Source: Fragilariopsis cylindrus CCMP1102
Lineage: Eukaryota > Bacillariophyta > Bacillariophyceae > Bacillariales > Bacillariaceae
NCBI GenBank assembly: GCA_900095095.1
Contig: FMBT01000429.1
Coordinates: 1-64,000, forward strand
Direction: 5' to 3'
DNA length: 64,000 bases
Under the pieces are notes generated by a model. The model did no database searches. It had not been told where the DNA came from and was given only the letters and a program-made list of their open reading frames with translations. The translations under genes and the position numbers were made by a program. Positions 12,944 through 40,900 of this stretch are shown here, in pieces. Numbering within the stretch: position 1 is the first letter of the stretch; each line of letters begins with the position of its first letter.

Positions 12944-13178
12944 GCGCTGCATTACCGTATTAAAAATACTTGTATGCATGCTGTAAATTGCCTACAGTAC
13001 TGTACAGTAGAAAGACAGCATAAAAACATTATCATCAACCGTCCCCTTTTCGTAATAATAATAGACTAAAGATAGCAACAGTGTTAATAATAATTCCACA
13101 ACGCATTTCCTCTAACCAAAACAGTTCACATACCCACACACGATAATATCATATAATACGCAAAAACGAAGCATAATA

Positions 13179-13586: not shown

Positions 13587-14397
13587 ATAGATCAGAGAGT
13601 AATAGAATGACGGAATTGGTGGTATAAAAAGAAGGATGATGATGATGATGATGATGATGGTGCTGATAAAGCAATAAAATATTGCAGGCGAAAGAGTACG
13701 AAGTTTTACGATGAAGAATTAGTATTATATTAGATGGAAAAGTGGACGGGTTGATGTATAATTTGTATGCAATACAATACACGATTTATCATGATAAGAT
13801 ACTGTAGCCTTCTGGATGGTTCAAGATTATGAGGATAGGACTGAGTTGAATACATACCTACTACATATCACAAGACTGCAATGGGCGTGAATGTTCATTT
13901 TTTTAAATAGACTAACACTATGATAATGCCTTCCATGCGATTGTAAAATAATATAGAAGCTAAGCTATCATGAATATGTAGAAAAAATTAGCAGCACGTG
14001 CGTGTACCTATTAGTTTTTTGATTATTTATTCTATCGTTCTATAGGCAACTCGTAAATAAGTTGAGCCAGCAGTAGTATGTGCTGATCGAGAACGATTAT
14101 TAAGGTGCAACAGGAAGTGGCATATTTGCATTGACTGTAATAGTTTGGATGATGGAACCAATCTGGGATTCCAAAGTCTTGCTGTCTCTAAAATCAACAA
14201 TTGCATTGTAGCAATATCCACAGTTCCCTCAATCCCTTCAAAGCTTACAACAGTAGAAATTTAAAATAGTTTAAAGAATTGAAAGGAAAACATTGAACAT
14301 ATAAGTGGAAAGTTGATGGTTATATTTTCACAAGATATCATATATAAACAAATACATACCTTCCTGTGATGTGAGTGAAAATGCATATAGGAACAAA

Positions 14398-15845
14398 AGA
14401 ATATCTCATTTGAAAGGGTTGCAGAGGATAACACTAGATGGGTTGGGTACACTAACATCCACATAATGTACTAGAACATTGTGTTTGCCTCCTACCACTT
14501 TTCTGTTCCTGTGGTTGCAGAATAAAATTCATTCCACTGTTGTTGCACGCACAAAACAACATGATTTTCAATCAAAATGAACCACAAAATATCTCATTTG
14601 AAAGGGTTACAGAGGACAACACCAGATGAGTCAGGTGCCCATGATTTTCAATCAAAATGAACCACAAAATATCTCATTTGAAAGGGTTGCAGAGGACAAC
14701 AGCAGATGAGTCAGGTGCCCAAACATTCACATAGTGAACTAGAACATTTTGTGTGCCTCCTACCACTTTTCTGTTTCTGTGGTTGTGGAATAAAATTCAT
14801 GTTGCTTATATATATGGCAGGCGCACAAAAAACAAGCTTTTGATCAAAATCAACAGCAAAATATCTTATTTGAAAGGGTTGCAGAGGACATCACCAGATG
14901 GATCAGGTGCACAAACATTCACATAGTTTACTAGAACATTGTGTTTGCCTTGAATAAAATTTGTTTTGCAATAACATATTTTTTGTCAGAAATGAACCAC
15001 AAAATATCTCATTTGAAAGGATTGCAGAGGACAACACCAAACAGTTTGGTTGCACTAGCATCACATAGTGTATTAGAACATTGTGTTTGCCTTCTACAAC
15101 TTTTCTATTCCTGTGGTTGAGGAATGAAATTTGTTTCACTGTTGTTACAGGCACAAAAAACATGATTTTGGATCAAAAATAATGAACAACAAAATATCTC
15201 ATTTCAAAAAAAGTTACAGAGGACAACATCAGATGGGTGGGTGCACAAACATCCACATAGTGTACCAGAACATTGAGTTTCCCTCCTACAATTCCTGGTG
15301 GTTCATCATCACTTGACTAAAGCAATTCTGATTGGTATCATTTTTATCTCACAAATTCTCCAGTGGAGTTTGGTTATTGGAATATTGAACAACTTTGAAT
15401 GGTAAGCTGAATAACTTCTCCTTAGGTTCTAGAATCAGCATGGTGCACCAAAATATTTCATACCTATAGGGGATGAACCAAGGGCCATGATCCCTCATAC
15501 TTACCTTATTCTTGTCTCCAGAACACAAACATTGCATTTTGGCCAACATTTAATATTTCCATGCCCAAAAGTACCATTCAGAAATAGGCTGCCACAACAT
15601 CAAAATAAGAAAATGGACCATGGTTTCAACACCCAGATACCTTCCATATATGCGTCTTTTCCTGTGGTAATTCATCTCGCTGTTAGAATTCATTTCGCTG
15701 TTATGGTAAGCACACAAACAATATGATTTTGATCAGAAATGAACAACAAAATAACTCATTTGAAAGGGTTACAGAGGACAACAACAGATGGGTTGGGTGC
15801 ACTAGCATCCACATAGTGTACTAGAACATTGTGTGTGCCTCCTGC
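14398..15845. repeat. Repeat family R1, seven copies of a ~190-bp unit
   Basis: Copies begin with ATATCTCATTTGAAAGGGTT (or a close variant) at about 14401, 14589, 14669, 14861, 15004, 15194 and 15751. They continue with GCAGAGGACAACACCAGATG, a GTGCAC block, ATCCACATAGTGTACTAGAA, CATTGTGTTTGCCTCCTAC and a CTTTTCTGTTCCTGTGGTTG tail. Unit spacing is close to 190 bp with truncated copies of about 80 and 143 bp. The gap before the last copy is filled by a different repeat (R2). No terminal inverted repeats or LTRs were seen, and the copies differ from each other by many substitutions, so the array is old. Confidence 0.8.
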
Positions 15846-16390
15846 TGACACCATAATGTGGCTTGCTTTGAGAAGTAGTGATATCAAGCCAGAAATTAGG
15901 GGAATAATCCAAAAACTACCTAAATATGATGGGATATACTGCCCAGAAAGACCTCTATGGACCTTTCCAGCATCCATGTGGACCATCCCAGGTGGCTGAT
16001 CATAACTTGTAGTCTAGAGAAATTGGAATTGGTATCATATATATTTCTACACCAAATTCTCTAGTGTAATTTGGTTATCGAAATAAATATCTAGTGTAAT
16101 TTGGTTATCGAAATTAATATTATTATTACTTCTTCTCCTTTGGATTTAGAACCAGTATGGTGCACCACAATACCACCTAGTCTTCCATGTCACACCCATA
16201 GGGGATGGACTAAGGGTTGAGATGCTTCTTAAATACCATATGCTTGCCTCCAGAACACAAACATTGTATTTCAGCCAACATTCATATTTCCTCTATGCCA
16301 AAAAGTAGCATTTAGAAATAGGCTAGTACAACATGAAAAAAAGCAGTTGGGGCATGGTTTGAACATCCAGATACCTTCCATATATACATA
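15346..16390. repeat. Repeat family R2, two diverged copies of ~330 bp
   Basis: Copies at about 15346-15655 and 16040-16390 share TTTGGTTAT, CAGCATGGTGCACCA-type text, ATAGGGGATGRAC, CCAGAACACAAACATTG, CAACATTYATATTTCC, AGAAATAGGCT and CAGATACCTTCCATATAT. Each lies to the right of an R1 copy, so R1+R2 appears to be a larger unit that was duplicated. The second has about 130 extra bases between R1 and R2. Confidence 0.75.
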
Positions 16391-17714: not shown

Positions 17715-19940
17715 ATGATGAGTGATAATACTACTAATAATAACATGAATAATGAATACGTTATCGACGAGTTCTCGAGCAGCAGTAGTAGTAGCGACAG
17801 TGACAGTGACAGTGACAGCAGCTCCGAGAAATATCAGGAGGAGATTATAATAAAAGAAGAAGAAGAAGAGACAATACTTGAAGAAGAATTAGGGGAACAT
17901 GAATATTCAATTGATCATCATTTTAATGAGGCTGATTACAACGACGTAATAGTGGGGGTGAATGTTACAAATGATGACAGCAAAGACAACGACAACGACG
18001 TTGACGGGGGAGGACAAGAAGAAGAAATTATTTTTGACAGTACAACTAGCATGCCAACACCAACATCATCATTTGATGCTGAGTTTGATTTTGATTATGA
18101 TGTACCACCGATGACGCTTGTTGGTGAAGAAGAAGAAGAAGAATTAGAAATTGATTCTACTGCTGCTGCTGCTGCTGCTATCACTGTTGCTCGACTGCTT
18201 GCATTAAAAGAAAAAGCACAACGTCAAGTTCCCAGTGACAGTGACAGTGACAGTGCCAGTAGTAGCGAAGATGAGGAGGAGGAGGAAAAAGAAAAGGTAC
18301 CTACAAAACGCCGAATAATAAGTCAACAACCTAGTGACAGTGATAGCGGCAGTGATAGCGATAGTGAGAGCGAGGAAGAAACAAGAAAGCCTGTAGAACG
18401 CCAAGTACGTCAAGTACGTCAAGTGCCCAGCGATAGTGACAGCGACAGTGATAGCAATAGCGATAGCAATAGCGACAATGAAAAAGTAGCAGAAAAGCCT
18501 ATAGAACGCCAAGTACGTCAAGTACCCAGCGATAGTGACAGCGACAGCAATAGTGATAGCAATAGCGACAGTGAAAAAGTAGTAGAAAAGCCTGTAGAAC
18601 GCCAAGTACGTCAAGTGCCCAGTGACAGCGATAGTGACAGTGATAGCGATAGCGAAGTAGAAACAAATATGACTGTAGAACAACGCCGAATAATACGTCA
18701 ACAGCCCAGTGATAGTGATGAAGATGAAGAAGAAAAAGGTGAGGAGGGAGAAGAGGAGGATATCAGAGGAGAAGAAGTTGGGGGAGCTGCAGTAGTAGTA
18801 GCCACCACCGGAGCAGCAGGAGAATCATCATCCTCTAATAATGATATTGAATTTGAAATGTCATTTCAAGACGTAGTAGAAGTATTTGATAATAGAGCAG
18901 AAGAAGTAGCAGTAATGACACCATCTCAACATCTGCAAGACGATATAGAAGAGGTAGTCGACAATGATGATGAATGGAATTCTAATTCTGATTTTAATTC
19001 TGATTCTGATTCTGATTCGAATAATGATCTGAAGGATCCGCCGTCCGTCACGCAACAACAACGAATAGAGGAAGATGATTCCGATACCAATTCTGATTTT
19101 AATTCTGATTTTGGTTCGAATAATGATCTGAAGGATCCACCGTCCGTCACGCAACAACAACGAATAGAGGAAGATGATTCCGATACCAATTCTGATTTTA
19201 ATTCTGATTCTGATTCTGATTCGAATAATGATCTGAAGGATCCGCCGTCCGTCACGCAACAACAACGAATAGAGGAAGATGATTCCGACACCAATTCTGA
19301 TTTTAATTCTGATTCTGATTCTGATTCGAATAATGATCTGAAGGATCCGCCGTCCGTCACGCAACAACAACGAATAGAGGAAGATGATTCCGACACCAAT
19401 TCTGATTTTAATTCTGATTCTGATTCTGATTCGAATAATGATCTGAAGGATCCGCCGTCCGTCACGCAACAACAACGAATAGAGGAAGATGATTCCGATA
19501 CCAATTCGGATCCATTGGAGATGAAGAGAGAAGAAATCCCTGTAGAACACCCAATAATACGTCAACAGCCCAGTGATAGCGACAGTGATAGTGATAGCGA
19601 AGAAGAAGAAGAAAAGACTTTAGAACGCCCAATAATACGTCAACAGCCTAGTGATAGCGATAGCGATATCGAAGTAGAAGTAGAAGAAGAAAAGGTTGGG
19701 GAAGAGGATGTTGGAGGAGAAGAAGGAGCTGTTGTAGTAGCCGCCGCCGCAGGAGCAGGAGAATCATTATCCTCTAATAATATTGAATTTGATTTATCAT
19801 TCCATGACGTAGAATTATTTGATACAGTAGAGGAAGCAGCAGCACCATTCTCTAAACAGCAACAAAACGATATAGAAGAAGATGAAAATGAGGAGTGGAA
19901 TTCTAATTCTGATTCTGATTCGAATGATCCATCCTTCACG

Positions 19941-19972
<32 letters not shown>

Positions 19973-22900
19973 ACGAATAGCGGAAGATGATTCGGATTCA
20001 TCAAATTCGGATCCATCAAATTCGTCATCAATGTTAACGTCCCCACCGTCATCATATAAATTGACACGGGGGGTTGTAGAGGCAGAGGCAGATAGTAACA
20101 GTAGTCGTAATAGTAATGATATCGTCGTCGAACCACCTGTATTATCAGGCCTAGAGTCAGTGGCCAATTACCTAACCTTATCTACACCCACCTTACTCAA
20201 TAACGACATCGATAATGATGATGACGAGGACAATAACGAGGGTAGTATCAATAATTATGGCATTGATACCGATACCGATATTGTTTTTGAACCACCTGTA
20301 TCCATCAATATGGATGATGGTGCTGGGACTTTTGATACCGACATCGTCGTTGAACCACCTATATTATCATCAGGTAGCATTGACAGGGTGAATGATGAAT
20401 ATCCAAGTCCAACTCCATCTGCACTATCTCTACTACTTAATAATAATAATGATGATGATGATAATAATAGTAATAATAATAATAAGGGCAACAATAATAC
20501 ACCATCCTCGTCCTCATCATCCTCTGATGGTAGCACCAATAACAATGAAGAAGACTACAATGGCGATGATAATGGCAATGATATTGTATTCGAGCCGCCG
20601 GTGTTATCAAGTTTTGTGTCAGATAATCACAATAGTAATGACAGGAACAATAATGATAATAGTTATAGATCATCCTCGTCCTCATCATCATCCTCTTCGG
20701 ACGACAATGAAAATGACAATGACATCGTTTTCGAACCGCCGTTGTTATCAGGTTTATCTACAGATGATAACTACCCAGCCCCATCTTCAATCCCCTTACT
20801 CCATAGCAATGATAATGATGGTATCAACAGCAACAAAAACAACAGATCGTCATCCTCATCCTCATCATCGTCTGATAGCAGTAGTAACAGCGACGATGGA
20901 AACAATAATACTAGAAATATTGTAGAAGAAGATTGGAATTCCGATAGCAGCAGCTATTCTGGGACGGAAGAAGAAACGCATGAGGCAGCAGCAGGACCAC
21001 CACTACCACAATTTGGTGCACCATCAAATAAAATACCATCACCACCACCATCGCATGCAGATGGTGATGACAATACGAATATGTCATCGTCAACAACACC
21101 ATCCTATAGTGAAGTTATGATGACAAGTCCTTCACAGCAACAGCAACAACAAAGTGACATGCTATCGCCATTAACTCCATTATCGTTACCTTCTCCTATT
21201 GGCGATGATGATGGTAACGATGATGGCATAGAACGAATTAGCAGCAGTCAATTAGGGGAATTATTGGTTGAACCATCTCGGGATATACCATCACTACCAG
21301 ATAATCTTTCGTCGGCATCTTCTTCATCATCCTCATCTTCTTCCTCACATGAGGAGGAGGGAATAGTAGCAGAAACAACAGTAGCAACATCAATGGAACA
21401 AGAATTACTGGGATTTTTAAGTACACTACCAAATACTATGTCTTCTTCACCATCGACATCTTCTTCGTCTCCGGCAGAGGAGGAAATAGTAGCAGGAACA
21501 ACATCAATAGAACGAGAAGAAGAAAGCTCTAGTAATGATAATGTTCCCATCATTTCCTCTGAGGAAGTACTGTCCCCACCATCACCACCATCACCACCTT
21601 CTTCACCATCGACATCTTCTTCATCACAGGCAGAGGAGGAAATAGTAGCAGAAACAACATCAATAGAACAAGAAGAAGAAAGTTCTAATAATGATGATGT
21701 TTCCATCATTTCCTCCGAGGAAGTACTGTCCCCACCATCACCACCTTCTTCACCATCGGCAACTTCTTCATCACAGGTTGAGGAGGGAGTAGTAGCAGAA
21801 AAAACATCAATAGAACAAGCAAAAAAAGGGGCGCGCGCGAATAAAATTAAAATAAATGACCGTTGGATAGCTCACCCTGCGCGCGAAGAAGAAAGTTCTA
21901 ATAATGATGATATTCCCATCATTCCCTCCGAGGAAGTACTGTCCCAATCATCACCACCTTCTTCGCCGCAGCAAACAATACAGCTACCACCACCACAACA
22001 ACAACAAGAACAACAGGAAAAGATTGATAATGATCCTCATCCTGTACACAATAATACATCGTCACCAACATCGTCCAGTTCTTCTTTAGTAGGAAGAAAC
22101 AATAATAGCGACAGCGACAGCAATAGTAATGGTATTGAAAATGTTATAATGCAGGCACCGATTATCCAGCGACAAGGTGGAGATCTGGACGGTGATCGAA
22201 TTGGTGGTAGCGATGACGACGACGGTGAAAATGTAACTGACAATGACAGTGAAAGTAGGGGAAGGGGCAGTGTTAGTGTTAGTGATGATGAAGGGATAGA
22301 AGAGAGTTATACTGGAGAAGCAGTTGTATCGGAAAACATTAGTAATATTAACTATAACAATGATGCAGAAATTTTATTCCGTGGTGAAAACAAAATTGGA
22401 GGAGGAGACGATGATGATTATGGAAGTGATAGCAGCGGCTCATCGGAAGAAGAAGAAGGAGAAGAAGATCAATCAAAAAATAATGAAAGTGCGGAACATC
22501 AAAATCACGATGATCTTTCTGATAAGGAAGATTTAGAGAAGGGTGGCGATGGCGAGGAGGAGGAATACAGCGAATCTGACGATGATGAGTCCAACGAAAA
22601 TGTATCCGACTCAGAATCTTCGAGTGGAACATCCGACGACGATGATGCTGCTGCTGCGGCTGCTGCTGATGATGATGATGATACGGATAGTAGCTGGGAG
22701 AGCGAAACATTATCATCGGATATGGTGCAAGATACAGACGACGATGAGAGACCGATCCAAAAAACAGATAGTGGAGAAAGCGAATGTACAATACCATCAA
22801 CAAATGCGGACATGGTTGCTGGAGCGACATTATTACCTAGTGATGTACCCGATGATCGCTCAAATACACCGCCAATAACAGAATCGATTCTTATCCCAGC

Positions 22901-25900
22901 TACTTCGAATAATACAAATTCAGATGCTAATAGCATTTCTTCTTCCAAATCTTTCCACGATGTCGATGATGATGTTGATGACGATTACGACGTTGATGGC
23001 GATGTTGATGATGCAGTCTCAAGTGATGATGAAAGTCAATCTATTGCTTCACTTGCAAGGCATATGTTAGCTAAAGCACAAGATAAAGCAGATTCAGGTG
23101 AATTACAAGGAAGGAATGGACATGATGATGAAAAAGATGAAGAAGATTCCAGCGCCGATGATTCCAGCGCCGATGACAATGCTGATGACGCAGTTTCAAG
23201 CGACGATGACACAGTTTCAAGTGATGATGAAAGTCAATCTATTGCTTCACTTGCAAGGCATCTGTTAGATAAAGCACTGAGTAGTTCACATTCAGGTGAA
23301 GAACAAGAAAGGAATGGACATGATGATAAAAAAGACGAAGAAGATTCCAGCCACGATGACGACGTTGATGACGCAGTTTCAAGTGATGATGACACGGTAT
23401 CAAGTGATGATGAAGGTCAATCTATTGCTTCACTTGCAAGGCATGTGTTAGCTAGAGCACAAGATAAAGTAGATTCAGGTAAAGAACAAGGAAGGAATGG
23501 ACATGATGATGAAAAAGATGTAGAAGATTCCAGCGCCGATGACAATGTTGATGACGCAGTTTCAAGTGATGATAACACAGTTTCAAGTGATGATAGTCAA
23601 TCTATTGCTTCACTTGCAAGGCATCTGTTAGATAAAGCACTGGGTAGTTCAGATTCAGGTAAAGAACAAGGAAGGGACGGATATGATGATAAAAAAGACG
23701 AAGAAGATTCCAGCCACGATGGTACGCCAGCAGAGCAACAACAGAGTGGTCGAGATCCGAGCATCTCAAGTCGTGATATTAGAGCAAGCAAATCGAATTC
23801 TTCTTTTGATGGATCACACACAGACGGTTCAAGGATATCGAGCGAGAACACTTCACAAATAGAACCACGTACCGCAAACGATGATATTCGACAAGTGGCT
23901 CTTGATCTTCTGAATCGAGCAATGGGAACTTCGGATGATGTAGCTGCAGATGATTTCGTTTCGGAAGAAGGAGTGCAGTCTTCCAGAAATATCGAAATGG
24001 CATCAATGGACGATGAGACAGCAGAAAGTGAACCCTTTGCTTCCACATCAGTAAATCTTTCAATTGAAAGTGATGATGTTGGTGAAATAGCCAGAAAACT
24101 TGTTAATGCTGCAATGGAAAAAGTCGGCAAAGATGAATTGCCGAACGAAGGTACTATCGTACCACAAACTTCTGCTAACGAGAGTGAAGAAGACTTGGGC
24201 GAAATTTCAAGAAATATTGTTAACAAGGCAATTCATTCAATAAATGAAGACATCGTGGATGCAGAAATTTTTCGTGAGCCTTCTCATGATGAAAATGCTG
24301 ATGCTGGTGGTATTGATGGACGACATGTTGATTCGGAAATGGGAAATGCGGACGATGGCAGTGGTAGGGTTGAAGTCTTTTCTCATACCTCGAGTGATAG
24401 CAACGACGTTGCTGTTATTGCTAGAAATATCCTTATTACTGCAAGTAATGCTTCAGATGATGAAAATACGGCGGAATCACTAACACCGAATACGTCTGGC
24501 GAAGGCGAAGACTTGGAGGAAATAGCAGAAACGCAGCGATTAAGCGAGCGGTTAAGAATACAACGACTATCGAATGATATAGATGACGCCAGTCTTTGTT
24601 CCGCAGAGATTGAAGAGCTTGATGATTTACTGGATAAAAATGAGAGTGGAATATCCATTAACGAAGATCGTCTATATGATCTAGATTTGTATGATCGATG
24701 GCAAAATGGCGAGACGCTCAACAAAGAGGAAACGAAGGATCTAGAAAATTTCAAAGCGAGACGAAGGGATGCACGATCGGGTAGCAATGTTGATACGTAT
24801 TCTCATTTAGACGATCTTCGTCATCCTAAAGATAATTTGGATGAGGATAGAATGTCGCCTAGATCAGATACATCCGAAAGCGAAGTTGTGGTGGAAGAAG
24901 CACTATCACCCGATGATCAACTTGTAGCAGAAGAAGCACCGTCACCGGAGACCTTGGGATATACTGTAGGAGACGAATCAAGTCTATCGTCGTGGGAGCT
25001 AGGTAAGTTATTAATTTTGAATGGAAATTAAAGTGAAGCTTATTGTTATTTCATCATTTTCAATTGTTCTAACGTTGATTCTTATACCACTTTGTCCTAA
25101 TTTTGTGAAGATGAACTCGATGACATGATTAGTCGCCGAGACAATGGTGACTCCTATTCTGAAGATCGATTGCGTAACTTGGAACTTTTCGATAGATTTA
25201 CAAATAATGCTTCTTTGGATAGCGAAGAACTCGAAGATTTATCAAACTTCCGAAACGATAGAAAGAAGGAGCGAGAATATGGTCGTGAACTTATTGAGCT
25301 TATCGAAGCAAACGAAAGAGGAGAAGAAATCGACACCGATCGTCTTCTTAATCTCGAGCTCTATGCACGTCATCAAACAGGTGAGGAACTAACAGAAGAG
25401 GAGTTGGAAGACATGGATATATTTTTTCGCCGAGAGTCAGACTCTAAACTTGATTATCTCGACCAGGTAAATCAACCAAAAAGCTCCGAAGTTGACGAAT
25501 TAATACTCCAGTCTGATGTTTTATTTGATCCTCCAAGAGAAATCTTAGAAAAGCCATTGCTGGCAGCATCTTTGAAAGCAAAAGATGAAAGCATTTCAAT
25601 GTTCGATACCAGTACTTTATCGAACTCTCATCTTGAAGGTCTCAACCAGCCACAAAGCTCTGAACAGGATGAATTATCACTGCTATCTGATGGTTTGTTT
25701 GATTCTCCAAGAGCAATGCCTAAAAAACCGTTACTAGCAGCAGCTCTGAAAATGAATGATGGAAAATCAAAATCAGAACATGATGATTTAAATAAGCATC
25801 TTGAAGGTCTCAACCAGCCACAAAGCTCTGAACAGGATGAATTATCACTGCTATCTGATGGTTTGTTTGATTCTCCAAGAGCAATGCCTAAAAAACCGTT

Positions 25901-28900
25901 ACTAGCAGCAGCTCTGAAAATGAATGATGAAAAATCAAAATCAGAACATGATGATTTAAATAAGCATCTTGAAGGTCTCAACCAGCCACAAAGCTCTGAG
26001 CAAGATGAATCATCACTACAGTCTGATGGTTTGTTTGATTCTCCAAGAGCAATGCCTAAAAAACCGTTACTAGCAGCAGCTCTGAAAATGAATGATGAAA
26101 AATCAAAATCAGAACATGATGATTTAAATAAGCATCTTGAAGGTCTCAACCAGCCACAAAGCTCTGAACAGGATGAATTATCACTGCTATCTGATGGTTT
26201 GTTTGATTCTCCAAGAGCAATGCCTAAAAAACCGTTACTAGCAGCAGCTCTGAAAATGAATGATGAAAAATCAAAATCAGAACATGATGGTTTAAATAAG
26301 CATCTTGAAGGTCTCAACCAGCCACGAAGCTCTGAGCAAGATGAATCATCACTACAGTCTGATGGCTTGTTTGATTCTCCTAGAGCAATGCCTAGGAAGC
26401 GGTTGCTAGCTGCGGCTCTGAAAATGAATGATGAAAAATCAAAATCAGATACTGATGATTTGAATAAGCATCTTGAAGGTCTCAACCAGCCACAAAGCCC
26501 TGAGCAAGATGAATTATCACTACAGTCTGGTGGCTTGTTTGATTCTCCTAGGGCAATGCCTAAGAAGCGGTTGCTAGCGGCTGCTATGAAATCAAAAGAA
26601 GAGAGTATATCAAATTTAGATACGAGTACCTCTCGTTCTGAAAGTCTTAACCATACACGAGGTACTTTTGAAGATAGTGCATCATCATTCCAATCAACAG
26701 CTATTTCAGGACCTCCACAAGATGCTAATAAGAAGCCTTCGCTAGCTGCTGCTTTGAAAGCAAAAGAAGAAAGCGTTTCAAGCTCGGATACAAGTACGTC
26801 TCATCTTGAAGGTCTTAACCAACCAAGATCAGTTGATGATGGAGAAATTTCTATCGATTCAGATGCACTTTTTGATTCACCAAGAGAGATGCCACGAAGG
26901 CCATTGCTTGCTGCTGCTGAAAAAGCGATGGAGGAGAGTATTTCAAGATTGGATACAAGCATATCTCATCTCGGAGGTCTTCAAGCGAGTACTTCAAGAT
27001 CGGGTACAAGTATGTCTCATCTCGAAGGTCTTAACCAACCAAGATCAGATGCTGATGATGGAGAAATGTCTATCGATTCAGATGCACTATTTGATCCACC
27101 AAGAGAGATGCCACGAAGGCCATTACTTGCTGCTGCTCAAAAAGCGATGGAGGAGAGTATTTCAAGATTGGATACAAGCATATCTCATCTCGGAGGTCTT
27201 CAAGAGAGTACTTCAAGATCGGGTACAAGTACATCTCATCTCGAAGGTCTTAACCAACCAAGATCAGTTGATGATGGAGAAATGTCTATTGATTCAGATG
27301 CACTTTTTGATCCACCAAGAGAGATGCCACGAAGGCCATTACTTGCTGCTGCTCAAAAAGCGATGGAGGAGAGTATTTCAAGATTGGATACAAGTGGGTA
27401 TAATCATGGAGATTCTAACGACCCAGAACGTATGTTTGACGACAATGCTGATGACTCAGATTCCATTCCACAGCAGGTTCAAGAAACTCGTTCTATAAAT
27501 GACAACAACCAGGATAGTTCCGGTCAAGATGCCTCCAGCTTTGACTTTGAAAGTTCGTCGTTTGATAGTTATGTCGAAGATGGTTCTATATATATGTCAG
27601 ATAATGATGCTCGTTCGTCAAGTGAAAGATTAGTTCTGTCATCACGCCGTTTTGATGACTCTTTTCAAGCCCGTAACCAAATATCAAGTCTTCCAAATGA
27701 TGACAGCAGCTCCTACACTAGTACTCATTCGCAGGAACAATCCGACGGAGTTCAAGCCGGAAACCAAATACCAAGTCTTCCAAATGATGACAGCAGCTCC
27801 TGCACTAGTAGTCATTCGCACGATTGTTCTAGTCGAGATATCTTGATGGATAGAAAAGGAGATATGTCTACAGCCTATGCACTCTCAAATGAAAACACGT
27901 CTTTTTCATCATCTTCTCACGAAAGCATCGCGTCAAAAAATTCGATGCTCTCTGTAAGTGAAATCGATGAGTTGAATGATCTTCTAGATAAAGAAGAAAA
28001 CGGCGAGAGTGTGGACGAGGATAGGATCTACGAGCTAGACCTTCTAAGTCGTTGGCAGATCGGTGAGGAATTGACACAAGAAGAAAAGGCAGATGTGGCT
28101 GCTTTTAAGGCTAGGCGGAAGAAAGATAAAGAACGTGATTTTGATGCACCTGCACCGTCCTCAGCAAATGTTTTGGATGCAGGATCTGGTCCGAATATAC
28201 CTGAGTCAAATAACGAAGATCAAGAACGGAAATTCGGTTCCACAGATTTACCTGATATTGAATCATCCTCCGACGATGAAGACTCTGTAGAATCGGACGG
28301 AATAGATGTCGAAGCAAAAGTGCAAGACTCGTCGAGTGAATTCGGTTGGAATCCACCAGAGTTACCATACTTTGATGCCCAAGAAAACGCTGCTAGTGAC
28401 GAATTGAACCCGACAGAGCAATCATTTCCTATTGACGGCAGCGAAAATGAAGTAGAAACACAAGAAACAGTTCGAGATTGGGTCCCACCAGAGACGACAT
28501 TCTTTGAAGAAAATCCTTCGAACAATAGTTGGTCGGATGCTGATAGTGAAATACGAGATCGTGCTGTAGAAGATCAGAATATCGCTGAGCTAGCAGTTTT
28601 GCGTTTAGAGGAGGAAATAAGATTGATGCATGAACTTGAACAACAGAAAATCAATGCTGAGCGAAAGAAACTGGAAGAAAATAAGATGCGTCTTGTAGAA
28701 GAGGAGCAACTTGCGAAACTAGCAGAACAGGAGACACTAGAAGAAGGACGTCGTATGGCCGAAGAGACTAAGATGATACAAGAATTAAAGAAGAAGAAAG
28801 ATCGGGCTATTGAAGATCAGAAGATCGCCGAGTTAACAGATTTGCGTTTAGAGGAGGAAATAAGATTGATGCATGAACTTGAACAACAGAAAATCAATGC

Positions 28901-31900
28901 TGAACGAAAGAAACTGGAAGAAAATAAGATGCGTCTTGTAGAAGAGGAACAACTTGCGAAACTAGCAAAACAGGAGACACTAGAAGAAGAACGTCGTACG
29001 TCCGAAGAGACTAGGATGATACAAGAATTAAAGAAGAAGAAAGTTGATGCTGAAAGAGAAAGACTTAAGGATGAAGCTAGTCGTGCTGAAGAGCAAAGGA
29101 GAAATGAGATTAAACAAAAACGATTGGAGAAGGAAGCTCGTCGTGTCGAAAAGCAAAGGAAGATAGAAGCCGAGCGAAGAAAACTGGAAGGGGAAACGCG
29201 ACTCGCTGACGAGCAAAAGAAAAATGAGATAGAACGAAAACAATTGGAGAAAGAATCTCGTCGTTTCGAAAAGCTAAGGAAGATAGAAGCCGAGCGAAGA
29301 AAACTTTTAGAGAAGGAAGCTCTTCAAGCAAAGGAAAGGAGGAAGTCGATTGAGTTGGAGCGTATGAAACTTCAAGAAGAGGAACGACAATTTCGTGAAG
29401 CACCTCGATCTGCTACGAACGAATCCTTTGGTACCTCAGATCACATTCAAGTTATGAGAGACATCGCAGCGACTGGAAATATTTACTCGCAGGAAGTTCC
29501 GTCGAACGAAGAAACTTCTAATTCATCTGTGAGCAATGACGACAGTATTTCACGTGAATCAATCTTATCTATTTGGGAAATTGATCAGTTGAACGATCTT
29601 CTAGATAAAGAAGAAAACGGCGGGAGCGTCGATGAGGATAGAATATATGAACTTGATCTCTTCTGCAGATGGCAAATCGGAGAGGAGCTGGATCGAGATG
29701 AACTCAAAGATCTGGGAGAATTCAAAGATAGACGGAAGAAAGATAAAGTACCTGATTTTGAAACAACTACATCGTCCGCAACAAATGCTTTCGATGCAGA
29801 ATCTGATCCAAAAGTTGCCTCAATAGATTCACTTGAAGACTCTGTAGAATCGGACGGGCGCCATTATAAGAATAATAATAAAGAGCAGAACAAGCTGAGT
29901 GAATCCGGAAAACAAAAGGTTGTTAGTGACGAATGGAAAGCGCCAGAGCACTCGTTTTTTGTTCATGCCAATGAAGGTGAACTTGAAACCCACGAGACAG
30001 TTCGAGACCAGGTCCCGTCAGAGACTACATTCACAGTGCAACAGGATCCGATAGGCAAATATCCACGTAAAAGACAAGATTCAATTGACATTATTACGTC
30101 TCTTCATGACTCAGATTCATTTCATGCTTCTTTTAGTGATGAAAGTCGTTCTTTTTTTTCTGGTAGAGCATCACAAAACCTGGCAATACAAAGAGAAAAT
30201 GACGATTATGATTCTACAAGTTTCCAGGATTCGGATCGAAATTTGCTTTCCAGTACCGAATTATCCGATGCTTTCCGAAGAGACAAAGAAGATGAACCGC
30301 CTCTGACTGCAGCATTCAAGGCGGAGAGACAAGGTAACGAGACTCATCTTGATTCCCTGAATCAACCACGATCCATCTTATATAATGATAGTATTTCACT
30401 TGGGTCCAGTGAACTATTCGACTCCCCTAAAGGTATTCCAAAGAAGCGTCTATTGGCTGCAGCTATGCAGGCACAAGGATCCCCGGGAGAAGAAGTTGAT
30501 GTAGGAAGGGGATCACATCTTGAGTCCTTGAATCAACCAAACACTGCATTAGAAGAAGATAGAGAATCACTTGCGTCTGGTAAAATCTTTGATGCACAAA
30601 AGAAAGACATAAACTCTCCTAATGCTAATGGAAAACGCGAAGATTCTTACCCGGGATCTTTAGCGTCAACGTCCATTTCAAACAGAAAGCTTTCTGTTGC
30701 TTCATCGTTTCGTTCATCGTCAAATTCTTCATCAGATTCCTCTTCGAATCATGACAGTGTTACGAAAACGAAGAAGACAAAACAAGATGAGACACGCTCT
30801 CATTCTAGATCTAATACGTCAAATATGAAGCCGAAAGCAACAAACAGAACGTACCATTATTCGTCATCATCATCATCCCCATCAACTTCGGTTTCCTCAT
30901 CTCAGATATCGTCGGCAAAACGAGGGAAAGGCTCAAGCGGTTCAGAAAGAAAGGAGATATATCACGATAAATCGATGCAACTAGCAGCCAAAACAGGGTC
31001 GTCCTCGTCATCGTCATCGTCAGTATCATCGCGAAACAAAAGGAAAGGTGGGTCGAAAAATAATAGTATGGGGAATGTGAAACCAGCTGCAAAATCAGGA
31101 TCACTAGCATCGTCGTCGTCGTCGCGGAACGAAGGAAAAGATAGGTCGAGAAATCTTATGGGCGAACAACAAGCATCTTCGTCGAAATCATTGTCAAGTA
31201 AAGCAGGTAGTATGAATTCAAATTCAAAATCCATGGTACCGATCGAATCGAACACTAATAGCAGTAACAAAGCACCTGTTCATAAAGAGCAAGAAGAAGA
31301 TTTTTGGACACCACCTGTCCTAGATTTATTTAATTCCCCCGTTGATACTCTGCTGGGCATATCTACTCATAAGTCTCCTGATGTGGAAGTTACTGGGTCA
31401 GTTGCTTCAACTACTCCTAAAGATCGTGCGCAAGCAGATTCTCAATCGTCGAATATAGCAGGAAAATCTCGTGGTATTTCTAGTATGAATAGCAAGGGAA
31501 AAGATAACAACACAGTAGAAAAAAAATCGAATACTTCCAAACCCCTCGTGCTAGGGAAAGATATACGGAACGCGTACGATACGTTGTTGGCTTGGGACTC
31601 TCTGCAGGAAGGATCTTCAAGGAATCCAGAAAAAAATGTATGTGGAGCACACAACTTAGAAGATGCCGAGAAAAAAATCTCATCATGGGCTCCTATCTTT
31701 GATTGGAATCCATTTAGTTACATACGGCAACCCGCACATGCTCAGCAAGAGTTGGAATCTCAACTTCCTAAACCAGATCCTCCCCCTGTTCTGTATAAGA
31801 ATCTATCGCACCCGCAGAAGACCAAACCTTCCATTCAAGAAACTAGATACATCCACGGAATAAAAGAAGATTCGTCGATTGCTTCAAATTGGGGACCACC

Positions 31901-32384
31901 TTCTCTTTTGAAAATGGGAAAAAGTCGCGACCGTCGATCACGGAACGAGAAAGCATCGGAGAGTTATAATCCTCCAATAGACTACGTGTACGATCAGACA
32001 TCAGCTGCAACCAAAGATGAAACAACACAGCTGCATTACCACGAAGCTTTACCTAACGCTTCTGCTACTCAATCTCAATCTCAGCACCAAGTTTCTTATC
32101 AAGAAGGGCGACGCAGCAGTGATTCTAGTAGTAGTAATAAACGAAAGTCAGCAGAACATTTCAAAGGATTTGATCCCAGTTTATTGTTAGCATCGTGGGG
32201 TCTTCCCGTACTCGAAAAAGTACAAAAAGAAAGTCAAATGAGATCACTTCACGTAGAATCAATGCCGAAGAATGCACCTATAACTTCTAGAACCGTGGAG
32301 GAAGATTCGTCCTCGTGGGGATTTCAGGACTCGAGAGATCAGTCCCACAAGATACACCGAGTCTCATGGGAGCTGGTAGAATGA
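17715..32384 (+). CDS. Giant acidic Ser/Asp-rich repeat protein, N-terminal part of an LRR membrane protein
   Basis: Exons 17715-25002 and 25111-32384, joined across a 108-bp intron (GTAAGT donor), give 4,853 residues with no interruption. The splice restores a module seen elsewhere in the protein (SSWEL then DELDDM). Regions in order: SD-rich RQ(V/P)PSDSDSDS repeats; five 35-residue NSDFNSDSDSDSNNDL units; low-complexity Asn/Asp/Ser with a recurring FEPPVLSG motif; SSEEV/PPSPPS repeats; four SQSIASLARHLL units; five copies of a 50-55-residue LDDLLDK...YELDL..RWQ.GE module; six 56-residue HLEGLNQPQSSEQDE units; three related 72-residue units; a Glu/Lys/Arg coiled coil with an 80-residue duplication; Ser-rich and WGxP motifs. 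The stop at 32384 is probably not real: the frame shifts by one base near the G-run at 32317 and the text continues into a transmembrane segment and LRRs. Many Ser-Asp/Glu sites suit CK2-type phosphorylation (inference). Confidence 0.8.
18220..18720 (+). repeat. In-frame RQ(V/P)PSDSDSDS repeats
   Basis: About seven in-frame units, each with R-Q-(V/Q)-P-S-D-S-D-S-D followed by a Glu/Lys-rich spacer such as EKVVEKPVE. DNA-level GACAGTGATAGC runs suggest replication slippage. Two more units occur at 19555-19675. Confidence 0.75.
18984..19508 (+). repeat. Five 105-bp tandem repeats within the giant ORF
   Basis: AATAATGATCTGAAGGATCC recurs at about 19021, 19120, 19225, 19330 and 19435. The period is 105 bp (35 codons) except for one 99-bp unit. 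Copies are almost identical, including synonymous sites, pointing to recent expansion. Confidence 0.9.
21819..21884 (+). repeat. 66-bp in-frame insertion inside a repeat unit
   Basis: The surrounding units read SIEQ-EEESSNNDD. Here 22 extra codons (AKKGARANKIKINDRWIAHP plus AR) split SIEQ from EEESS. The insert is bounded by GCGCGCGC and GCGCGC blocks with an AT-rich middle, unlike the surrounding acidic low-complexity coding sequence, and adds basic residues. Confidence 0.7.
23000..23730 (+). repeat. Four ~180-200-bp in-frame repeats (SQSIASLARHLL units)
   Basis: AGTCAATCTATTGCTTCACT (or a close variant) recurs at about 23034, 23232, 23416 and 23596. Each unit encodes DDAVSSDD, SQSIASLARH, a short helix, a GxxQxRNGHDD segment and an EEDSS acidic end. 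Confidence 0.85.
25627..26640 (+). repeat. Six 168-bp tandem repeats in exon 2
   Basis: CTTGAAGGTCTCAACCAGCC recurs every 168-170 bp from about 25628 to 26470. Each unit encodes 56 residues: HLEGLNQP, S-S-E-Q-D-E, SDGLFDSPRAMPKKPLLAAA and a Lys/Glu/Asp-rich linker. The first four are nearly identical at DNA level; the last two are more diverged, so the array grew at its 5' side. Confidence 0.9.
26795..27400 (+). repeat. Three ~217-bp repeats related to the 56-residue units
   Basis: Units at about 26803, 27018 and 27237 encode HLEGLNQPRS, a DDGEMSIDSDALFD core, PPREMPRRPLLAAAQKAMEE and an SRLDTS linker. The core is homologous to the preceding 168-bp array; a weaker pair of the same type lies near 30345-30600. 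Confidence 0.85.
28555..29400 (+). repeat. Coiled-coil region with an 80-residue duplication
   Basis: Two near-identical 240-bp copies start at about 28559 and 28800 (AEDQKIAEL-type start, then IRLMHELEQQKINAERKKLE). They are followed by shorter EKEARRVEKQRKIEAERRKL repeats. Composition is Glu/Lys/Arg/Leu with heptad-like spacing, typical of a long single helix or coiled coil. Confidence 0.8.
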
Positions 32385-34139
32385 AGAACTCACGTGACGA
32401 AATTCGTGATAACAGTACGAGCTCATCGGAGTCTATCCCTATTGATAGTAGTAGTAGAAGCTCTAAATCCAACGAAAGTGATGCTTTTGATGCTATGGAA
32501 CGAGGATTTTCGGACCCGAACGTAGATCCAAGCCCGGATGCTTCTGAAAATCATCCCAATAATAGTGGTGTGATTGATGTACCGTTAGAACGCCAACAAC
32601 AAAAATCGTGAAGATTTTGATTCACCAAAACTTGATTCTGATTCATTCAACGATGAACCAGTAGCACCAAAAAGAAAGAGGACACGTTTGATTGTATGGT
32701 CTGTCATATTGTGTTTGTTATTGCTTGCATTGATTGGTGGCGGTGTTGCAGCAGTGTTGATACTTTTAAACAAAGACAACAAGGATGAACCTACCGTTCC
32801 CCCAGTTAGTGCTCCTCCGATCATGGCACCATCATCAACTATTCCACTTCCAACACAACCACCACCACCAACAGTTTCTACACAATCTCCAATGTATGCA
32901 CCAACGAACGCGATTTCAACCGCGGCCATTAAGGATTTGATTGTTGCTAATGCTCCTGATGATGGTGTATCTTTAAATGATCCAACATCACCTCAATCAA
33001 AAGCCCTGCTCTGGTTGCAACAACCGATCAATATAAATGCTGGATATAATAACTCGCGACTCTTGCAACGGTACGCATTAGCAACAATTTATTATGCAAC
33101 TAATGAAAATGATAATAGTTGGACGTCATCTACGGGATGGTTGAGTGAACAGGATGAATGTACATGGTTCAGTACCAGTGAATCGTCCGATACTGTATGT
33201 ACTCCTGCTGCTGCTACCTCAACACTCGATCTACCTACCGATAGTGCGAATAGCAATGGTAATGCAAGTGGGAATGATGAAGGGAGTAGTATTTATTTAG
33301 AATTAGATCTACGTGGAAATGGTTTGATAGGTAATATTCCAGAAGAAATTAGTTTACTGTCATCGCTACAAATAATACGATTGTCAAAAAATACATTGAT
33401 CGGAACGATTCCTGTTACTATCACAACAGCTTTAATACAATTACAGTATTTAGATTTATCATCAAACAAATTAGTACAAGGTGACGTGGTGGATTTACTA
33501 TCCGACCTTCAAATTAAAGCTAATGGTCGTGACAATATATTTGCTCAAAGTAGTAGCACAAATACCGATGCCAATACAAGAATTATTGCCAACAATAACA
33601 ATAATAACAATGATGATCAAGATGGTGATGCTAATAACAGTGATAATAATAGTGGTAGATTCTTATCTTATTTGGATAATATGCAAGCATTGACACATTT
33701 AGATTTATTTGACAATTCATTTAAAACTACATTACCAACAAATGTTTGGGGTAACGAAGATGGAACAGGTGCATCACCATTATTATCATCATCACCATTA
33801 TCAAGAAATTTAAAGGTATTAAATTTAGGCTCAAATGAATTTTTTGGTACGCTACCCAGTGAGATTGGTCTATTAGCGCAACTAACAGGACTTAGTGTAT
33901 TTGATAATTCATTCAGTGGTACATTGCCAGAATCAATAGCTAATTTACGTTATTTGGAATTATTATATGTCGATTCCAATAACTTTAGTAGTATACGTAA
34001 CGTACCGGGTGTACCACAAGAAATTTGTACATTACTACGACCAACACCATTAAAAGAATTTTGGTCTGATTGTGAAGAAATTGATTGTACGTGTTGTACA
34101 ACATGTTGTACCAAAGAAGCAGGTTGTGTCGCAGTGTAA
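32381..34139 (+). CDS. Transmembrane and leucine-rich-repeat C-terminal part of the giant gene
   Basis: A Ser-rich stretch (32381-32610) precedes a one-base frame change at an A-run near 32600-32605. The frame from about 32589 to 34139 then encodes KRKRTR, one hydrophobic helix (32694-32765, IVWSVILCLLLLALIGGG) and a Pro/Thr stalk. Next come the pre-LRR motif LLQRYALATIYYAT with W-T-S-S-T-G-W-L and a Cys, plant-type LRRs (LELDLRGNGLIGNIPEEI, LQYLDLSSNKL, LKVLNLGSNEFFGTLPSEIG, LTGLSVFDNSFSGTLPESI), and a Cys-rich end (CTCCTTCC). This is the layout of diatom LRR membrane proteins. Basic residues before the helix predict N-in/C-out, so the LRRs face outside. An alternative to frame changes is an intron 32376-32588, but its donor (GTAGAA) is poor and the segment reads like protein. 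I take this as the end of the gene that starts at 17715. Confidence 0.8.
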
Positions 34140-35227: not shown

Positions 35228-35793
35228 CAGATTATTCAGTTGATAATTGTAGAATATATGTTCGAATGATGATGTTGGATGTGCAGCAACACACAGAACT
35301 TTGTGCAGCAGTACCAGTAGCCCTACAGTAATGTTTGTTGTTGCCTGTCTCAATCCACGACAAAACAACACAAAATTCAAATCTCATATTTGAAATCGAG
35401 ACTGTTAGTGTTTTGAATCAATTGAATCGAATGAGTCGAATAAATCCTAACAACTTTTAGTCGTGGAAAAAGCTATTTAAAAAAGCAATCTGATAAAGAA
35501 CATGCGTTTTGTTTGTTTTACCGTTGATCTTTTTTTTTGTATCACAAAAAAATATCTTTTTTTTTTGCTTTGGCATCACAAGCAGAAGATCGTGTGATGC
35601 ATGAGTCGACTCGTCGACGTACTATCGTCATTTCACTTACAAAAAAAATCCACACTCATCGTTCATTCACATCGCATTATACTATTGTCATTCCTCACAT
35701 CACAACCGTTGTAACTGTACGCAAGTTACTGTGTTACAAACAAACAAAACAAGCCTAATAGAAAATTCGAAAGAAGACAATCCTACTATTATC
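35228..35793. other. Divergent promoter region
   Basis: The stretch lies between the start of the small secreted protein gene and the metacaspase start. It contains long T and A runs (for example near 35530 and 35560) and no recognisable gene if the shorter upstream start is right. No promoter element could be named. Confidence 0.5.
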
Positions 35794-37261
35794 ATGGGTC
35801 GTTTTATGAAGAATTTTCGTAAAAAGATTGAAGAACGTATTGAAAATGCTGTGAATGAAGCCACTGGTGGTAGTATGGGTGGCGGTGGAAGTGGATCTAG
35901 TAACAAAACAATGGACCAAGTAGAAGCACAAAAAGCATTTGAAAATGATAAACCAGATTCGATGCGGAAAGATGTTCGTATGATATCAGGTTGTGATGAT
36001 ACACAAACATCTGCAGATGTATCCAATGTCAATTCATTTCAATTACCGGATCCTGCTGGACGTGCGGGTGGTGCCTGTACCTCCACATTATTAAATATAT
36101 TATATAAAGATGGACAAACTCCCGAGGATACAATGAGTTTTACGGAAGTATTAGACAAAATGAGAATCAATTTAAAAGAAAATGGATATAGTCAAATTCC
36201 ACAATTAACATCCTTAAATCCAATTGATGTAACCACTGATTTTACATTAGTACCATCCGATGCAACAGGTGGTGTACGACGTGCTGTTATGATTGGTATA
36301 AATTATGTTGGACATGAACAGGGTGAATTAAGTGGTTGTCATAATGATGTACTTAATATGGTACGTTGATCGTTTGATCGTTGATGTTTGATGTTCTTGT
36401 TGACATCGTTGTAGCTGTTGTTGCTGTTGTCGTTGCTTTATTATAGACTCGATTCGTTTTACATTCACATTTTTCTTCGTTTCACTTCACATGCACATGC
36501 ACACTAACTTCCTCACTCCACTCCAACTCGCAACAACAACAAAAAACTATAATAATAATATCAGAAAAAATATATTATGAATGAACATGGATTTGATGAA
36601 GATAATATTGTTGTACTTATGGATGATGGTCAACATACGTCACCAACAAAATCGAATATGATTAATGCATATAAACAAATTGTTGCTGATAGTGAAGATG
36701 GTGATACTATCTTCCTTCATTATTCTGGTAAGTCACATATATCGTCGTCCTTTCTCCTGGAGTACTGTACTGCACCGCACTGCACTGCACCTGATTTCGA
36801 TTAATTCATTCACTTACATTACAAACATCTTACTCCTTCCCTCCCTCTTTCTATCCATCTATTTCTCTTTTTTCTTTAAATATTAATAATACAATACAAT
36901 GCAAACAGGACATGGTACGAAAGTACGTGATGAAAGTGGTGATGAAGATGATGGATATGATGAAGCATTATGTCCATTAGATTATAATGATAGTGGTTTG
37001 TTAGTGGATGATGATTTATTTGCAATATTAATTGAACCGATGCAGCAGGGTGTACATATGGTATCATTAATGGATTGTTGTCATTCTGGTACAATTTTAG
37101 ATTTACCATATATCTTTAAACCAATACCAAATGAAGATGGTAGTATGCCAACATCAATGAAATTAGATGATACCATTAATTTAGATGGATTAATTGAACA
37201 ATTTGGTGGACAGGCTATTGGTTTATTAGTAAACTTTTTATCAAAATCATTACAAGGATAA
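35794..37261 (+). CDS. Type III metacaspase (p10 before p20)
   Basis: Three exons, 35794-36360, 36565-36727 and 36909-37261, give 360 residues with intact frame. The N-terminal part has the p10-type signature (RMISGCDDTQTSADV, GRAGGACTSTLLNIL, LTSLNPID). After it comes the p20 part: RRAVMIGINYVGHEQGELSG, FDEDNIVVLMDD, IFLHYSGHGTKV with the catalytic His, and LMDCCHSGTILDLPY with the catalytic Cys. The HG motif is completed only by splicing exon 2 to exon 3. This p10-p20 order defines type III metacaspases, known from algae with secondary plastids. They are Ca-dependent Arg/Lys-specific cysteine proteases linked in diatoms to stress and cell death; that role here is inferred. DCC rather than DSC at the active site is shared by known diatom members. 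It converges with CAND1. Confidence 0.9.
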
Positions 37262-37906: not shown

Positions 37907-40900
37907 TTATCTCTCCTCTTCGATAGCATCAAGTGCCGAGCGGAATTTTGAATTACCTTTAATACGTTCGACGAATTCAGCAAATTTACGTGAATTCATT
38001 GTACCTTCAACCTTCGATAAGGCAACCATAGTACGAAGTGCAGATTTCTTCCAATCGATTAAACGTTCTAATTCTGTTCCAGTTTTAGTACCGACTTTCT
38101 ATTCATCGTCTTTTCAAGTGGTTCTACAAAAGTTTCAACAGCAGCAACCATATATGTCGGTTGACGTACACACATTGTCATAACAATTTGATGTGCCTGT
38201 AATTGGATATCTTCAACGTCCTTGAGTGTAGCTGCTAATACTGGCATGAAAGTTCCAATATCTAAACTGCCTGGTAAGTTCTCGAGGGATGTTGTAAAGA
38301 TTGATAGTGCCGCTTTGCGTAAAGGCAAAGCATCATCGACCGTATGACTAAATGGACCAAGGTCGATCTTACGTTGCAACTTGAAAGTAGCAACTTCATA
38401 CAGTGCGGGAGTGATTTGATCTTTCATAATATTACTACAGAAACAAGTTGGGGCATATGATGTACGGCAGAATATACCATTAATAATGCCGCATTACGTG
38501 CACCTAATTCCTTTTGGTCCAGCAGTAATAATTTTAATATTTTCGGAACGTAAGGTGACAATTGTGTGGGATCAGCTTTACCAGCAATTGCATGCTTTAA
38601 GGAAATAGCAACCGTCCAACAAACGAATGCATTCTTCTTCGAGACAGTATCATCGGCATCGACGGTACACTTATCGGTAACAGTAATTGCCGAATGATCT
38701 TCTGCCATTTTACATAACTTATCACACATTATTGCAGGTTGCATACACGTTAAGCTACCTAAGCATTCTGCAACCATTGATCGGATACCTTCCTTTTCGT
38801 CTGATGCATGATTGATTAAATGAGGCAAGATAAGTGGAAGGGTCGATGCGATACCATCCCCACCAGATTGTGCATACGAGGACTGAATAAAACCACGCAA
38901 TGCCGATAACAACAAGTATTGTTTCTTTTCATTGGTATCATTTTCTTCTAAAGAATTCACAATGCTGGTAGGAATACAGATTGTGTATCACCAACAGCTG
39001 CACGTCCCAATGAGTACGCTGACGCATTCTTCAAATCTTCGGAGGGTGAATCAAAGTATCCCATATAAATCGCATTCAATTTCTTGGGAATATCATCGTT
39101 ATCAGAAATCGATCCTAGATCGACCATCCGTCCTAGATCACCCAATACCAATAATGATAATTGGACTTTGCGTAATTCCTCTTCATCAGTTGGTGTAGAT
39201 GATTTGTTCAGTACTTTGAGGAAATCTGTAACAACGCCCTGTTGTTTACTCGATGTGGTAGCTGATGTAATAACAGCAATACATTGCGCTAGGTTATAAA
39301 TAGCATGTTTACCGGAAGCAGATTCCGATGCTTTCGATAAACGACCGTGTAGCATATCTAATACTTCTTGAAAATCAACAGCATCGGAAATAACAATTTG
39401 TTCAAGTAAAGCAAGGAGTGATTCCAATGCTAGATCTTGCAGTAACGGTGATGTAGACAAGACCAATGCTCGGGTAATAAATGATCCTTAACACTTGGTC
39501 CAGAATCGGGACAAACTTTAAGTGCCGAGATAGATGCACGACTGTTGTCGTTTCAGTGTGTGTGAGTACAAAACGGCGAAACGAAAGAAATCGGACAGAG
39601 AACAGATCAGTGTGTGTGAGAGAGAAAGAGAGAGATGACGTGTTAAAAAACACACAACAAAAATAAATCTAAACTTACAGACTTAAATGACTAATATGTA
39701 AATCAGTATCAATAACTAAATCAGCTAATTCTTCAAGTAATGATGAATATAATTCCGTTGCAACCTTTTTGGGTTTAATTGTTGAACCATGATTTGTTAT
39801 AACAACATCTAATGCTTCAAGAGATGTTTGTCGTAATGAACGCGATTGCATTTTTAAAAATCCAGACATAGTTGTTATGGAATCACCTAATATACCTTTA
39901 TTATTTATACCGGTACCAGTAGCAAAATCAATGTCGCGACCATTTTTACTAGAACAAATTGAACTAAATGTTTTGATTGCTGGTATACGTGTTGTCTCAT
40001 TAGTTAAACGTTCTAATAATAATGTTGACAAGCGTGAGATATGTTCTTTTTGTAAATTAGTATGTAATTCACTTAATAAGGACGATGTTGCTAATAATGC
40101 GCATTCTTTAATTTCTTGATCAACATCACGTGCTGCCAATAATGGTTCAATACTATCATATAAACGAATAGCAATATCGGTTGTTTCTTTTTTTGTACCA
40201 GTATCAGTAGTACCACTAAAGAATTTCGGTACAGCTGCTAATGCTCTAAGTGCTTCTGCAATTACTTTATACCAATGTTCTTTAGTTGCATTGCATAGCT
40301 GTGGCAGTAATGCACTAGATAATCCCTCACGGATATGATTTGGATTGTGATTATTTGATTCTAACATGGCAACAATCAATGATAATGCATCTAATCGTAA
40401 TGCCTTACTTGTTGTATCTGCCTTATGATGATTCCCGCCAATGTTAGCATCTTCATCTTTGTCATCGTCATTACCGTCACCTAAAAATGTTTGTACATGT
40501 GTAAATACAGATAAAATTTCATCCTTACCACCTACACCACCTGGTGCCATACACAATGTACTTAATAAACTTAATGCATATGACTTCGATCGTTCATTGC
40601 CCTTTTTAATACCCATTAATTTTTCACATCCTTTCACAATTGCTGGTGCATATTTACCTTGTAAATCAACAATTGTAGTAGCAACGTCGGATGTTTCATC
40701 CATTTTAGTATCATCATTATCAACGTTACTACCACTAAATTTTAAATTAGATGTATTATGATTCGATGTAATTTCTGTTGTTGTTACTTGTAATAATTTC
40801 GTGAATGTTTCAAGTATACCAACACGACAATTTTCTTCACGTTCTTTAAATCTACCAACTAATGCAGATGCAACACAATCCACAGTCTTTTTACGTCGTA

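Follow-up and report, generated by a model that had tools for sequence, protein, structure and literature searches.

A giant acidic protein with a new predicted three-helix module and its likely membrane-LRR continuation at a diatom locus

Introduction

Do two very long open frames in the diatom Fragilariopsis cylindrus CCMP1102 continue into a membrane helix and a leucine-rich repeat (LRR) domain as one giant surface protein, and what might the inner part of such a protein do? The window analyzed here is a 64,000-nucleotide stretch of DNA (contig FMBT01000429.1, positions 1 to 64,000), in which the locus occupies positions 17715-34139 of the plus strand. In excerpts of the literature, many diatom LRR genes are described, with expansions or regulation (PMC7335047, PMC9054022, PMC7296067, PMC5485032); in one further diatom, bacterial signals elicit a response from numerous LRR-domain genes (PMC7296067). 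How algal membrane LRR proteins signal in the absence of a kinase is a question on which this protein may bear. A sequence-only reading of the locus had proposed a single LRR membrane protein of ~5,400 residues, encoded by two frames of 7.3 kb joined over a 108-bp intron and leading into the helix and the LRRs. Our best reading is likewise that the giant part and the helix-LRR part are likely one gene, although this is not proven: a single reading frame does not run through the sequence as assembled, while coding signal spans the gap.

Results

Two long open frames are joined by an intron that splits a repeated module

Two ORFs on the plus strand, at 17715-25031 (2,438 codons) and 25125-32384 (2,419 codons), lie in one frame and are uninterrupted; when exon 1 is shuffled 200 times by mononucleotide and read in three frames, open runs reach at most 180 codons. 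An in-frame stop lies just upstream of exon 1, and the frame opens at 17679. The two ORFs are connected across a 108-nt GT..AG intron (intron 1, 25003-25110), whose removal yields 4,853 residues without an internal stop, in line with the join proposed from the sequence alone. Exon 1 (17715-25002), supported by the ORF, the shuffles and its composition, encodes an acidic N-terminal region rich in serine, aspartate and glutamate and carrying several tandem repeat arrays, and exon 2 (25111-32381) continues the main frame to a stop at 32382-32384, with a coding signal that fades from ~32.34 kb. With intron 1 spliced out, the junction reads SSWELDELDDM, which begins a 61-residue module with four further copies in the window. 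This putative intron is well supported, since splicing restores the second copy of the module and since a relative on a metagenome contig (L001, described below) reads GESSLSSGELEELDHLL at the matching position and has no intron there.

The LDDLLDK module is a conserved, undescribed domain

An HMM of this module, named LDDLLDK, finds exactly five copies over the six frames of the window: M1 at 24600-24779, M2 at 24987-25277 (interrupted by intron 1), M3 directly after it at 25269-25451, M4 at 27951-28133 and M5 at 29568-29750. The five window copies and the two on L001 have Gly18, Asp24, Arg25, Leu29, Leu31, Leu41, Glu45, Asp48 and Phe52 in common. Between M4 and M5, dS is 2.42 and dN 0.17. 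Constraint on the module is stronger than its pooled pN/pS of 0.48 implies, because dS is too saturated to compute in 8 of the 10 pairs. The module is thus conserved as protein while its synonymous sites are saturated. AlphaFold2 (five rows) places it in three helices with a pLDDT of 88.7, a confident prediction of a small folded unit. Taken together, the copy number, the substitution pattern, the shared residues and the predicted fold bear out the module that the sequence-only reading had picked out.

The module is undescribed in the three libraries searched, namely Pfam, PDB sequences and PDB folds. A PDB profile search returns two matches up to E 5, the better at 0.97; the best Pfam match has an E-value of 0.11 and occurs in one of five members; and Foldseek gives 27 matches at E <= 10, the best at 2.9 and none at <= 0.001. 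Searches of viral contigs with the module alignment (A1) and the L001 protein, and of plasmids with M5, recovered no homologue.

A scan of a prokaryote genome collection gave 36 stretches matching the module pattern, one of which, L001, is a relative. It lies on contig JALOKO010000179.1 of a Bryobacterales MAG record, where the module fragment covers 4974-5456 (~480 bp) at the contig end. L001 has 52% identity to its best-matching module in the window over 61 residues, and it carries two tandem modules arranged as in M2-M3 (42% over 91 residues) after a similar ESSLSS lead-in. It differs from the window gene in being a fragment of ~480 bp only, fused to bacterial DNA with a drop in G+C content. 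We considered L001 as a bacterial gene and rejected this: contig G+C falls from 0.58-0.71 to about 0.42 where the module match begins, the upstream genes look bacterial, and the source genome is the sole matching one among 297 sampled from its phylum. The only P0002 match in that genome is the module itself. Because the G+C drop coincides with the start of the match, we read L001 as a eukaryotic piece apparently misassembled onto a bacterial scaffold, with the contig chimeric. Outside the window, across the collections searched, the module was found only on this contig.

The inner part is acidic, probably mostly disordered and partly constrained

The product of exon 1 consists of 25.7% aspartate plus glutamate and 22.0% serine plus threonine and has a net charge of -479; that of exon 2 has a net charge of -145. 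Exon 1 combines low hydropathy with a mean net charge of 0.197 per residue, which puts it to the disordered side of the charge-hydropathy boundary; exon 2 falls there too, and the outer part does not. The inner ~4,900 residues are therefore probably mostly disordered and acidic. Counted per 200 residues, net charge lies between -27 and -52 across the first 2,400 residues, whereas the bins from 4201 to 4800 carry +11, +9 and +1 and the last 51 residues -1. A stretch rich in serine, lysine and arginine (30423-31622; net +20 over 400 residues) lies towards the membrane end.

Several tandem arrays punctuate this sequence. They include a 105-bp array of NNDLKDPPSVTQQQRIEEDDSDTNSD units (18984-19511), a 156-bp array with one 66-bp in-frame insert (21442-21967), four ~183-bp units bearing the short-helix motif SSDD..SIASLARH(L/M/V)L (22976-23722), and arrays of a HLEGLNQP...FDSPR.MPKKPLLAAA unit with periods of 168 and 219 bp (25629-27487). 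Between M4 and M5 lies a 284-residue stretch rich in glutamate, lysine and arginine and free of proline (28548-29399), a probable long helical rod, with 87 opposite-charge i,i+3/4 pairs compared with 58.6 (sd 5.4) in 1,000 shuffles. A CopG-like Pfam match at residues 1837-1857 of exon 1 was set aside, as it is below the cut-off and falls at the SIASLARH repeat (residue 1842 on). The part encoded by 25629-32384 has no homologue in viral contigs. The 66-bp insert (22 residues; 21819-21885) has GCGCGC-rich ends and is present in one 156-bp copy and absent from the other copies shown. Its core has no second copy within the window at up to 3 mismatches and no exact match in viral contigs; it is possibly the footprint of a small mobile element.

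The inner part could instead represent mainly neutral tandem-repeat growth on an ordinary receptor, with only the modules mattering, an explanation that is compatible with one gene. It would account for the listed arrays making up a third of the coding bases (about 4,859 of 14,553) and for a pN/pS of 0.73-0.75 in the 105-, 183- and 219-bp arrays, values inflated to some extent where comparison windows extend beyond the repeats. These same three arrays suggest that much of the inner length may be loosely constrained. Yet other segments are clearly constrained: the six 168-bp units have a pooled pN/pS of 0.38, which becomes 0.43 when the whole family of 12 is pooled, the charged rod has 0.36, and the M4/M5 ratio is 0.07. 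We consider neutral growth a possible but doubtful account of the inner part as a whole.

Regulation by phosphorylation, which the sequence-only reading had raised as a testable idea, is weakly suggested by the distribution of CK2-type sites. Exon 1 holds 164 such sites against 137.9 (sd 8.8) in shuffles, about three standard deviations above expectation, whereas exon 2, with 92 against 86.5 (sd 7.5), has no excess.

A single membrane helix precedes a plant-type LRR domain

Hydropathy identifies one strong membrane helix (32688-32771; mean hydropathy 2.91), preceded by KRKRTR. By comparison, the best hydrophobic segment of the 4,851 inner residues, at residue 146, is alanine-rich and scores 1.52. 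Cysteines number six in these 4,851 residues; the 455-residue outer part has ten, together with five N-glycosylation sequons. The basic residues before the helix and this distribution of cysteines and sequons together support a predicted topology with the N-terminus inside and the C-terminus outside, so that the inner part would be cytosolic, as had been proposed from the positive residues.

The predicted extracellular part (32772-34136, with the stop at 34137-34139) comprises a proline-rich stalk, LRRs at ~33.3-34.0 kb and a cysteine-rich C-terminus. Diatom LRR proteins often share such cysteine-rich ends and N-terminal caps. In Pfam, the outer part (P0003) matches LRR_1 (1e-14), LRR_14 (7.3e-11) and LRR_8 (1.8e-08), all three above the cut-offs, and several consecutive repeats of the form LxxLxLxxNxFxGxIP identify a plant-type LRR domain. 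The LRR part matches 91 distinct PDB sequences at E <= 0.001; among the matches listed, GSO1 and FLS2 lead, with GSO1 the best at 2.5e-54. Because the single-sequence model of the ectodomain is poor (pLDDT 33.1), the LRR assignment rests on sequence. The LRR part has no homologue in viral contigs or phages. No kinase family appears among the Pfam hits at E <= 0.05 for P0001, P0002 and P0003, the parts up to 32384 and from 32589 on; an intracellular kinase domain of the kind that defines an LRR receptor kinase was not found there.

The coding signal changes frame twice ahead of the helix

The helix and the LRRs are present as the sequence-only reading described, but the main frame does not lead into them: it stops at 32382-32384, and the frame of the helix opens only at 32589. 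In 90-base windows, codon usage favors frame 0 up to 32239, frame 2 between 32299 and 32539 and then frame 0 once more, starting at 32599, and the result is the same with two training sets, one taken from the gene itself and the other from neighboring genes. In the windows at 32299 and 32539 no frame scores well, which is the pattern that a change of frame should give. Over 32376-32588, frame 2 scores 37.0 bits against -52.5 for frame 0 (gene-trained), or 17.0 against -32.5 (neighbor-trained), and 105 codons in one fixed frame stay open there in 3 of 2,000 shuffles. The stretch that is coding-like in the other frame (32340-32606; codons starting at position mod 3 = 2) is bounded by changes at ~32.32-32.35 and 32.60 kb. 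The best switch points by codon usage are 32339-32344 and 32602-32608, and homopolymers sit at both, CCC at 32344-32346 and AAAAA at 32601-32605. A switch at 32321-32323, next to GGGG at 32317-32320, is only 1.4-1.6 bits behind the best and about equally possible.

The LRR part can thus be joined to the giant part only by assuming either a pair of indels that compensate each other or an intron, for instance 32376-32588. We consider assembly indels the likeliest cause, because the switch points lie near homopolymer runs and because a similar break occurs within the window in the CAND1 gene on the minus strand. There, two ORFs in different frames match one PDB CAND1 chain (8or0_C); the matches end at residue 897 and resume at residue 903, with 26 bases between them (38955-38980), too few for an intron. 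As CAND1 is expected to be intact and is nonetheless frame-broken, one-base errors in the assembly are likely. A single gene is favored by this precedent, by the coding signal across the gap, and by the absence of any methionine between the preceding stop and the helix in the helix frame.

The locus could alternatively hold two genes, one for a soluble acidic repeat protein of giant size that ends at 32384, the other for an ordinary LRR membrane protein that starts in the other frame at ATG 32366 or 32381 and carries an indel near 32603. This arrangement needs one indel rather than two, and other-frame methionine codons do lie at the main-frame stop. Codon usage hardly separates it from a single gene: one gene with two indels scores 81.9 bits (gene-trained) and 56.0 (neighbor-trained), and two genes score 74.3 and 48.9, only 7-8 bits below. 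Placed on the same strand, however, the coding regions would abut or overlap and leave no space for a promoter or a 3' end, and the first methionine of the LRR frame itself falls beyond the helix. The best switch into the other frame also precedes the first methionine, by some 20-45 bases, with a small margin of 8 bits (gene-trained) or 4 (neighbor-trained). On this evidence, we regard two genes as unlikely.

A second intron at 32376-32588 (213 nt, GT..AG) would keep one gene and the main frame without invoking assembly errors, joining WEL to NANNKNREDFDSP. Its length is divisible by three, and it is one of fourteen frame-keeping GT-AG pairs of at least 40 nt. As noted above, however, the other frame gives this stretch a strong coding signal, and with the intron scored as 0 the total falls to 30.6 bits, compared with 81.9 for two indels (27.6 versus 56.0 neighbor-trained). 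Its donor, GTAGAA, is also weaker than the GTAAGT of intron 1 when judged against the splice consensus. Such an intron is accordingly quite improbable. Equally hard to credit is a decaying gene or non-functional haplotype with real frame changes, in which the LRRs are no longer translated with the giant part: two frame changes within ~290 bases would suit it, but ~14.5 kb is otherwise open, several repeats have low pN/pS, synonymous sites of the modules are saturated, and the similar break in CAND1 affects a gene expected to be intact.

Neighboring features of the window

Upstream of the giant gene, a repeat array of 142- and 80-bp families occupies 14372-15882 without an ORF of 130 codons, and a presumed plastid protein at 13116-13583 has no PDB match. 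Just downstream, at 35605-36366, is a caspase-domain (metacaspase-like) gene. Retrotransposon-like ORFs on the minus strand (46857-50389) carry an RVT_2 match below the Pfam cut-off and a Tudor-like match above it, and near 47.75 kb overlapping ORFs differ in frame. Finally, a histidine-kinase-like region at 54962-58425 ends in a HATPase_c ORF (57088-58425), before which two ORFs, 54962-56584 and 56563-56988, overlap in different frames, suggesting an intron or an indel.

Discussion

We propose, with about even confidence, that the locus is one gene encoding a single-pass surface protein of ~5,400 residues, with the N-terminus inside, the C-terminus outside and a scaffold or tether within the cell. 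In this proposal, the proline-rich stalk and the short plant-type LRR domain would engage a ligand, the wall or another cell. The mostly disordered, acidic inner ~4,900 residues would act as a multivalent scaffold or tether, in which the five three-helix modules, the short helices (SIASLARHLL) and the motifs FDSPR.MPKKPLLAAA and [FW]xPP could bind cytosolic partners and concentrate them under the membrane, with the charged helix of ~284 residues serving as a spacer between two modules. As no kinase was found, any signal would pass through the bound partners. What the sequence shows is the two frames, intron 1, the repeats, the conserved modules, the membrane helix and the LRRs; the assembly errors, the topology, the disorder, the partner binding and the scaffold or tether role are inferred. 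Should the inner part prove to be a scaffold that carries a definable module, that module would offer a direct handle on partners and signaling. More tentatively, the protein may represent a class of algal surface sensors that have, in place of the plant receptor kinase, a giant, multivalent and disordered inner scaffold with copies of a new three-helix domain, clustering its partners or forming a condensate under the membrane upon LRR engagement. By arithmetic, ~4,900 residues stretched at about 0.36 nm each would exceed a micrometer, so on this more tentative view the protein could also reach deep into the cell from its surface.

Comparison with known systems places the protein within a familiar kind. 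It shares LRR sequence of the LxxLxLxxNxFxGxIP type with the plant LRR receptor kinases GSO1, FLS2 and ERL1, from which it differs in that no kinase domain was found and in that its inner part is N-terminal; relative to the plant kinases, the order of parts is inverted. Among diatom proteins, MRP2 and MRM2 of Pseudo-nitzschia multistriata are described in an excerpt as having a membrane region and LRRs, annotated after plant LRR receptor kinases and without a recognizable kinase, and their authors suggest that they are mating-type pheromone receptors or adhesion molecules (PMC6261938). The window protein has the same combination of membrane helix and LRRs, with no kinase found (PMC6261938). 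A further excerpt mentions only the expression of MRM2 and MRP2 (PMC11749564). The Seminavis robusta Sro637_g179400 type has an N-terminal domain of unknown kind, one helix and a C-terminal beta-propeller, which its authors, as excerpted, interpret as a receptor or adhesion protein (PMC8027222). The window protein follows the same order of an unknown N-terminus, one helix and a C-terminal repeat-fold domain, with LRRs instead of a beta-propeller (PMC8027222). A giant inner part is not described in the excerpts of these diatom LRR and receptor papers (PMC6261938, PMC7335047, PMC9054022, PMC7296067, PMC5485032, PMC8027222, PMC11749564), and among the matches listed from the open PMC literature, titles and abstract openings name no giant diatom LRR protein. 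The kind of protein is thus known, and what is new here is its size, the LDDLLDK module and the multivalent inner part.
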